From contig NC_089582.1 of the NCBI RefSeq assembly GCF_019320115.1, forward strand, positions 117,062,637 through 117,126,636: a stretch of DNA of 64,000 nucleotides, in the 5' to 3' direction. Shown in pieces: positions 38,391 through 38,933 of this stretch (position 1 is its first letter; every line of letters starts with the position of its first letter). Made by a program: the position numbers and the translations under genes. The DNA is from Miscanthus floridulus. Taxonomy: Eukaryota > Streptophyta > Magnoliopsida > Poales > Poaceae. The notes under the pieces were generated by a model. That model was not told where the DNA came from and searched no databases. It saw only the letters and a list, made by a program, of their open reading frames with translations.

Positions 38391-38933
38391 ATGGCCCGCA
38401 TGAAGCAGACTGCCCGTAAGTCCACTGAAGGAAGAGCACCACGACGTCAGTTGGCCCTGAGGGAGCACCACACCATGGACACCTTCTTGAGCGGGTTTGG
38501 CATGCCAACCTTGCTTTGGAGAGTGCTCCATGATGTGGGGTACCCAGAGGGTCAAGAGCTGGTGTACTCTTGGAATGAGAGCCAGTTAGGAGAGGATGGA
38601 CTTGTAGTGGTAGAGATCACAGTTCCTGCTCTTGGTGATGCTCTAGAGTGGGATGGTTGGCACTTGGAGTTTGAGGGTCACACTCCTATTGAGGGTGCAG
38701 AGGGAGCAGCTTTCCGTATCATCAGGGAAATCATGAGCAGATTTCCCAGTGAGCTTGCAGCAGCTCTAGCTAGCACCTTTCCTAGGGATGATCCTCGTGA
38801 TGCTATTTGGGTTCAGCCTCAGGGAAGTGCTTTGGTCAGAGGTCCAGCTAAGGTACAGGCTAGCGACAATCATGCTATGAGTGCTATGTTTGCCGCTATC
38901 AGAGCATATCAGGGTCTTGAGTGTACCTACTAG
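38391..38933 (+). CDS. Extra retrotransposon ORF with histone H3 tail-like N-terminus
   Basis: ATG 38391 is preferred over the upstream in-frame ATG 38328 because it follows an acceptor-like CTACAG and because the protein then begins [21 protein letters not shown]. Aligned to H3 residues 1-21, 17 of 21 positions are identical; the differences are T3M, G12E, K14R and K18R. K4 and K9 and the ARKS context are kept. The next about 155 residues have no histone fold; they are Trp/Gly/acidic-rich with predicted helices ([38 protein letters not shown]) and match no family known to me. The frame stops at TAG 38931-38933 but continues open in the same frame to 39374, so the original protein was probably about 327 residues. 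Placement between LTR leader and gag marks it as an accessory ORF. Binding to chromodomains, methyltransferases or other H3 readers is inference only. Confidence 0.72.
   Translation: [180 protein letters not shown]

Follow-up and report, generated by a model that had tools for sequence, protein, structure and literature searches.

An H3-tail-like N-terminus in the ORF0 protein of chromoviruses from Miscanthus floridulus

Organization of the element

The window, by which we mean the whole 64,000-nucleotide stretch of Miscanthus floridulus DNA that was analyzed, contains a complete LTR retrotransposon whose features are listed in Table 1. Its two LTRs of ~3.9 kb each are flanked by a target-site duplication, its pol domains follow the order protease, reverse transcriptase, RNase H and integrase (Pfam), as they also do at locus L099 of the same genome, and a chromodomain lies at the end of the integrase, all of which places the element among the Ty3/gypsy chromoviruses; the chromodomain is a by-eye likeness in the window copy, and in L099 the Pfam Chromo match (7.8e-6) is barely above the cut-off. 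The K80 distance between the LTRs is 0.054, which presumably corresponds to an age of ~2 My. No primer-binding site was recognized after the left LTR, the last ~40 bases of which are unlike the right LTR, and no open frame of at least 150 aa is listed on the plus strand of the gag region in this copy. Going by its structure and by Kazancev 2024, we take the element to be a putative member of the Tekay clade. Elsewhere in the window lie, at its left edge, a pentatricopeptide-repeat gene that includes an E motif (24-1331), an RNase H fragment of another retroelement on the minus strand just past the right LTR (48870-49397), and an array of partly similar repeats with 29- and 59-base spacing (53661-54056).

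Table 1. Features of the chromovirus in the window (window coordinates)
Feature	Position	Strand	Basis or remark
Target-site repeat CTTGG	33800-33804 and 48212-48216		Flanks read by eye
Whole LTR retrotransposon (chromovirus), 14.4 kb	33805..48211	+	LTR self-match; flanks by eye
Left LTR	33805..37706	+	94.3% identity to right LTR over aligned part
Splice-acceptor-like TTTGCTACAG immediately 5' of ORF0 ATG	38381..38390	+	AG kept across copies
ORF0 as open in window copy, 180 aa then stop	38391..38933	+
Met + 20 residues of H3-tail-like N-terminus of ORF0	38391..38453	+	Next codon corresponds to H3 residue 21
ORF0 part with coiled coil and acidic sequence, same frame past stop	38934..39374	+	Compare copies open to 327-329 aa
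gag region, ATG after ...ATATGCAG	39738..40766	+
Protease piece (RVP_2)	40767..41261	+	Pfam
Reverse transcriptase piece (RVT_1)	41477..42034	+	Pfam
RNase H piece	42035..42598	+	Pfam
Integrase piece (rve, SH3_Tf2-1)	43040..44125	+	Pfam
Chromodomain-like stretch, stop across it	44075..44230	+	By eye; limits approximate
Right LTR, TGTAACAC to TGTTACA	44255..48211	+	LTR self-match, flanks

As the initial annotation had stated, the LTR leader is followed, ahead of gag, by a separate ORF, which in an element with LTRs >3 kb fits the description of an ORF0, or 5'aORF. Such an extra ORF upstream of gag is already described for long-LTR chromoviruses in Gao 2012 (PMC3485330) and Kazancev 2024 (PMC11728184), which name Retrosat2, RIRE3, RIRE8 and FRetro3 as well as maize and sorghum homologues as carriers. 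The published proteins resemble ours by description, being encoded upstream of gag in elements with LTRs >3 kb and diverging fast. Hydrolase and other enzyme roles have been proposed for ORF0 from homology models (Gao 2012, PMC3485330), and Kazancev 2024 (PMC11728184) presents a weak likeness of maize and sorghum ORF0 proteins to a DRBM (TM 0.35-0.37) and predicts nuclear localization for other 5'aORF proteins. The word "histone" is absent from the main texts of both papers, and among the matches listed from open-licence PMC papers none describes a retrotransposon protein with an H3 tail. The protein is thus a known orphan ORF0 with an apparently undescribed histone-mimic module.

The starts of both ORF0 and gag carry splice-like signals. 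The dinucleotide AG stands directly 5' of the ORF0 ATG in all 64 copies of the window family and in all 19 others read (L080-L098), embedded in a common TTGCTACAG-type stretch, and a third family, with a shorter ORF0 (the short-tail family below), has AG, T and then ATG in 18 of 18 copies. In 47 of the 64 window-family copies TGCAG or TGTAG immediately precedes the gag ATG, the pattern not being found in the remaining 17; the background in the window element is 16 of 188 ATGs. The leader is 684 bases long and contains 22 ATGs. This pattern fits splicing that would place each ATG near the start of an mRNA, and the acceptor-like AG at both starts hints at alternatively spliced mRNAs for the two ORFs.

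The N-terminus of ORF0 in the window

Direct alignment of ORF0 bears out the initial annotation's count of 17 matches over H3 residues 1-21, the mismatches being T3M, G12E, K14R and K18R. The start of the span given for this match stands, but not its end, as position 38453 closes Met plus 20 residues only. A phmmer search of PDB sequences returned 132 matches (best E 1.1e-4), the best 60 of which are all H3 or H3 chimeras, and the likeness to H3 is over by residue 28. Pfam assigns no family at E<=1 to the 180 aa of the window ORF0, and with the H3 match confined to the N-terminus no histone fold is present, in agreement with the earlier statement that the remainder of the protein is not a histone. 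ORF0 therefore possesses an H3 N-terminal tail without being a histone gene or pseudogene, both of which are rejected for want of the fold. A chance match is rejected as well, because the best 60 PDB matches are H3 or H3 chimeras and because a genome search with the window ORF0 (8772 first-look candidates) gave 150 scored matches in which the alignment always begins at residue 1 or 2. An accident of a single copy is likewise dismissed, since the tail occurs in further copies and families.

Conservation of the tail in two families

The genome scanned totals 2.68 Gb; about 19 of its 2420 contigs are chromosome-sized, and the window occupies 117.06-117.13 Mb of contig C3. Family 1, to which the window copy belongs, is represented by 64 copies: the window, 60 chosen from the 150 best matches with preference for stop-free ones, and 3 search-derived. 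ORF0 is open to 327-329 aa in 24 of them, while that of the window closes at 180 aa. H3 residues 1-13 are exact in 43/64 copies, 59/64 have 17-19 matches to H3 1-21, and the single commonest tail sequence accounts for 24/64; the M3 and E12 of the window are minority states (5/64 each). K4 and K9 are each present in 63/64, and S10, T11 and R14 in 64/64. The ratio pN/pS within the family is 0.205 for codons 2-12, 1.42 for codons 13-22 and 0.174 for body codons 23-180, values that the sampling of copies with few stops biases downwards. Residue 19 (ORF0 codon 20) stands out as variable beside its well-kept neighbours, with P, Q, R, L or S in the copies plus one stop; together with the ratio of 1.42 this indicates that the distal tail is loosely held within family 1.

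Family 2 was found with P0015, a 40%-identical relative, as query. All 123 scored matches in the same genome (12,811 candidates) start at residues 1-4. Twenty loci were read, 16 of which (L083-L098) constitute family 2; one (L079), the first codon of which is not ATG, was excluded from the codon comparison. K9 is present in 20/20 of these copies. Within family 2, K4, K9 and S10 occur in 16/16 and R14 in 13/16, and H3 1-13 is exact in 5/16, the others mostly showing single changes.

The two families share 56% residue identity over 40 body codons, and their commonest residues 1-17 are identical with a silent codon difference at 8/17 positions. Between them pN/pS is 0.09 for codons 2-12 and 0.11 for codons 2-18 (pS 0.541, pN 0.058), against 0.43 for the body (pS 0.796, pN 0.344). 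The contrast persists with 81 body codons (body pN 0.337), for which the median one-sided Fisher p is 1.6e-4 over 1024 non-independent pairs, 97% of them <0.01. As silent sites and the body of families 1 and 2 diverged, the tail was, judged from these codon counts, kept at the protein level. Within family 2 the tail ratio is 1.26, a value that we ascribe to the decay of old copies with many CpG-containing arginine codons. For three smaller lineages (from L080/L081 and L082) the tail ratios are 0.19-0.57 versus 0.16-0.43 for the body, codons 2-18 being no more conserved than the body in 3/5 comparisons, so that the contrast there is weaker or absent. Neither a tail private to one copy nor a tail decaying beside a constrained body, either of which would have made the match an accident, describes families 1 and 2, and the tail is common to independent copies and to three families when the short-tail family is included.

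Relatives with and without the tail

Profile searches, one of which gave 6513 proteins at E<=1 (best 120 of these listed), revealed many proteins of ~100-250 aa whose tails, for example MARTKKTPRKSTGPKGVPRHQLAPR and MPPRTRKTARKSTGPIGVPRHQLAPR, lead into coiled-coil-like, often acidic sequence. With one of these (P0058) as query, 150/150 scored matches in the same genome align from residue 1, ~112/150 being stop-free by hand count. In the 18 copies read of this short-tail family, K4, K9, S10 and T11 are invariant, position 3 is A in 17/18 and position 7 is P in 18/18. L099 has a short-tail ORF0 upstream of Retrotrans_gag, RVP_2, reverse transcriptase, RNase H, integrase and Chromo. A Pfam Bestrophin match in a short ORF0 (8e-4, below cut-off) was taken as a coiled-coil artefact. 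Pairs of equally oriented short-tail ORF0s are spaced by ~9.4 kb at G000:C10:80186155/80195556, C18:79210584/79219987 and C7:103370179/103379586, as if elements were in tandem with shared LTRs; further repeats occur on contigs C1839 and C1840.

A set of 136 database tails was assembled from 245 rows after removal of 66 histone-like and 43 unmatched ones, with at least 5/12 H3 matches and a downstream motif as requirements; K9 was not required, and one or two rows (P0027, P0062) are possibly not plant ORF0. Residue 9 is K in 136/136, residue 4 varies (81 K, 52 R, 2 H, 1 I), and T6, S10, T11 and G12 are found in 133, 126, 123 and 127, respectively; like the genome copies, these tails were picked by similarity and form a biased sample. 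H3 is not matched strictly: many relatives lack K4, and the short-tail family has P in place of A7 and A in place of T3. The distant ORF0-type match P0024 is from Aristida adscensionis, and no ORF0 relative was confirmed in viral contigs in one scan with one protein query. Near-perfect or perfect H3 tails also occur on other non-histone bodies (P0074, P0133, P0020, P0028, P0086, P0094, P0132, P0137, P0023 and P0025), from sources that include the fungi Cryoendolithus, Oleoguttula and Talaromyces as well as marine records; these are possibly independent histone-tail mimics.

ORF0-like bodies without the tail exist in the same genome. A tailed protein with a different body (P0019) gave 123 scored genome matches with identities of 21-30%, all of which start at residue 21 or later; in 9/10 stretches read the matching ORF lacks an H3 tail and opens with MAGAW or MA[ED]E, the tenth having no readable matching ORF. 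The 4 kb past one such gene (near L069) contain a second one and no other same-strand frame of at least 110 aa, hence no gag-pol frame on that strand; the opposite strand carries two frames (110 and 146 aa). Tail-less genes recur at spacings of ~7.6-8 kb (G000:C2:125606702, 125614284 and 125621864; C11:100542574 and 100550522; C14:24809385 and 24817043).

Predicted structure of the ORF0 protein

In the ORF0 models a disordered tail is joined to a fold like that of a dsRBD and to a long coiled coil, and two ORF0 proteins with very different bodies have the same predicted layout. The alpha-beta-beta-beta-alpha arrangement of a dsRBD is seen in the predicted models only. Structure comparison ranks dsRBD entries top for both, the closest being domains of DRB7.2:DRB4 and DCL4 (PDB 8igd, 9k9p, 9kby), from which ORF0 differs in showing only 16-19% identity and no Pfam dsRBD in the window's 180 aa; Foldseek on its own returned nothing at E<=0.001. 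The lysines that bind RNA at the start of helix 2 in a dsRBD are missing, none being found within 16 residues from position 95 in 61/64 family 1 copies. We take position 95 onward to be that site.

Possible roles of the tail

H3K9 methylation and RdDM are main brakes on plant retrotransposons, and such elements are still among the most numerous. It is proposed, with the case for and against roughly in balance, that ORF0 is a multivalent mimic of the H3K9 tail and a decoy for host H3K9 writers and readers. The initiator Met would be removed from Met-Ala, as in H3, and the free tail would be displayed several times per coiled-coil oligomer, where host proteins of the SUVH/KYP, CMT3, SHH1 and ADCP1 class may bind or methylate it. 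R14, and R or H at 18, would be non-acetylatable and keep the tail heterochromatin-like, and competition with real H3 would weaken H3K9/RdDM silencing while the element is expressed. In favour of this reading stand the tail in the scored matches of three families, its low ratio between families 1 and 2, the near-constant K9, the layout common to two ORF0 proteins of unlike body, and the place of the short-tail ORF0 ahead of gag, pol and a Chromo domain. Short ARKS/ARTK-type sequences outside histones are known as histone mimics in viruses and hosts, including influenza NS1, SARS-CoV-2 ORF8 and the automethylation site of G9a; the ORF0 mimic differs from these in lying at the extreme N-terminus, in its length of ~17-21 residues and in belonging to a high-copy retrotransposon protein. 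VANC of the Arabidopsis VANDAL elements is a transposon anti-silencing protein and, like ORF0, an accessory protein for which such a role is proposed; it is said to be sequence-specific on DNA, and we know of no histone mimicry for it. Several observations tell against H3 mimicry: the weaker or absent contrast in the smaller lineages, the decay of the tail within family 2 and of codons 13-22 within family 1, the departures from H3 at K4, A7 and T3 in relatives, and the untailed bodies.

The tail could instead be a basic nuclear-import or nucleic-acid-binding sequence that happens to derive from H3, its mark-bearing lysines being irrelevant. It is very basic, the K4 to R exchange in many relatives keeps the charge, and the nuclear localization predicted for other 5'aORF proteins (Kazancev 2024, PMC11728184) points the same way. 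However, residue 9 is never R in the database tails, which with R in 52 of them at position 4 implies that lysine and not mere charge is wanted at 9; the uncharged T6, S10, T11 and G12 are retained; and the first 17 residues are conserved despite silent divergence, more tightly than a basic signal requires. The retention of K at 9 beside K/R exchange at 4 and R/H at 14 and 18 favours a recognized or modified K9 over charge, and we regard the basic-signal reading as improbable. Far less credible, and largely disfavoured, is a one-time capture of part of a histone gene that is retained, without a role of its own, only for the start codon it carries: the tail has decayed in old family 2 copies, and within families residues 13-22, position 19 included, are loose, yet the low ratio of codons 2-12 within family 1 and a tail far more conserved than the body between families with diverged silent sites argue against such a relic.

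A tether, also raised in the initial annotation, is the main rival of the decoy, though rather unlikely as we see it. A methylated tail would be read by HP1-like readers or chromodomains and bring the particle, the RNA or the integration complex to H3K9me chromatin, thereby steering insertion. The tailed families read for pol (window, L099) all end in a chromodomain-like stretch, and the short-tail family leans to the interior of chromosomes (relative distance from the chromosome end 0.59 on average, KS p 1.5e-4). Against this, the window family and family 2 are evenly spread (means 0.46 and 0.48, KS p 0.16 and 0.45), and the case for tethering to the chromodomain of the element itself seems weaker: by eye we take that of the window to be akin to the plant group-II type, with most of the methyl-lysine cage missing. 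The untailed genes are more distal (mean 0.39; p 0.064 versus the window family, 0.016 versus family 2 and 6.9e-8 versus the short-tail family). All these position comparisons are uncontrolled for age and element type. The position sets, which exclude C15, small contigs and near-duplicates, use 136/150, 112/123, 114/123 and 135/150 of the matches for the window family, the untailed genes, family 2 and the short-tail family, respectively, and chromosome positions do not decide among decoy, tether and other readings.

The decoy may be one half of a two-headed anti-silencing protein, an extension that we put forward tentatively and with some doubt. A DRB/DCL-like, protein-binding dsRBD, joined to the H3K9-tail mimic by the coiled coil, may act on the small-RNA arm of silencing by interfering with the production of small RNAs. 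If this holds, it would amount to histone-tail mimicry by a retrotransposon, selected across the divergence of several families. A mimic that is methylated could also affect H3K9me2 antibody and mass-spectrometry data in grasses. A conserved H3-tail mimic together with a DRB-like domain gives the orphan ORF0 a concrete, testable role, and the keeping of the tail while most of the protein diverged suggests an engagement with the gene-silencing machinery of the cell.
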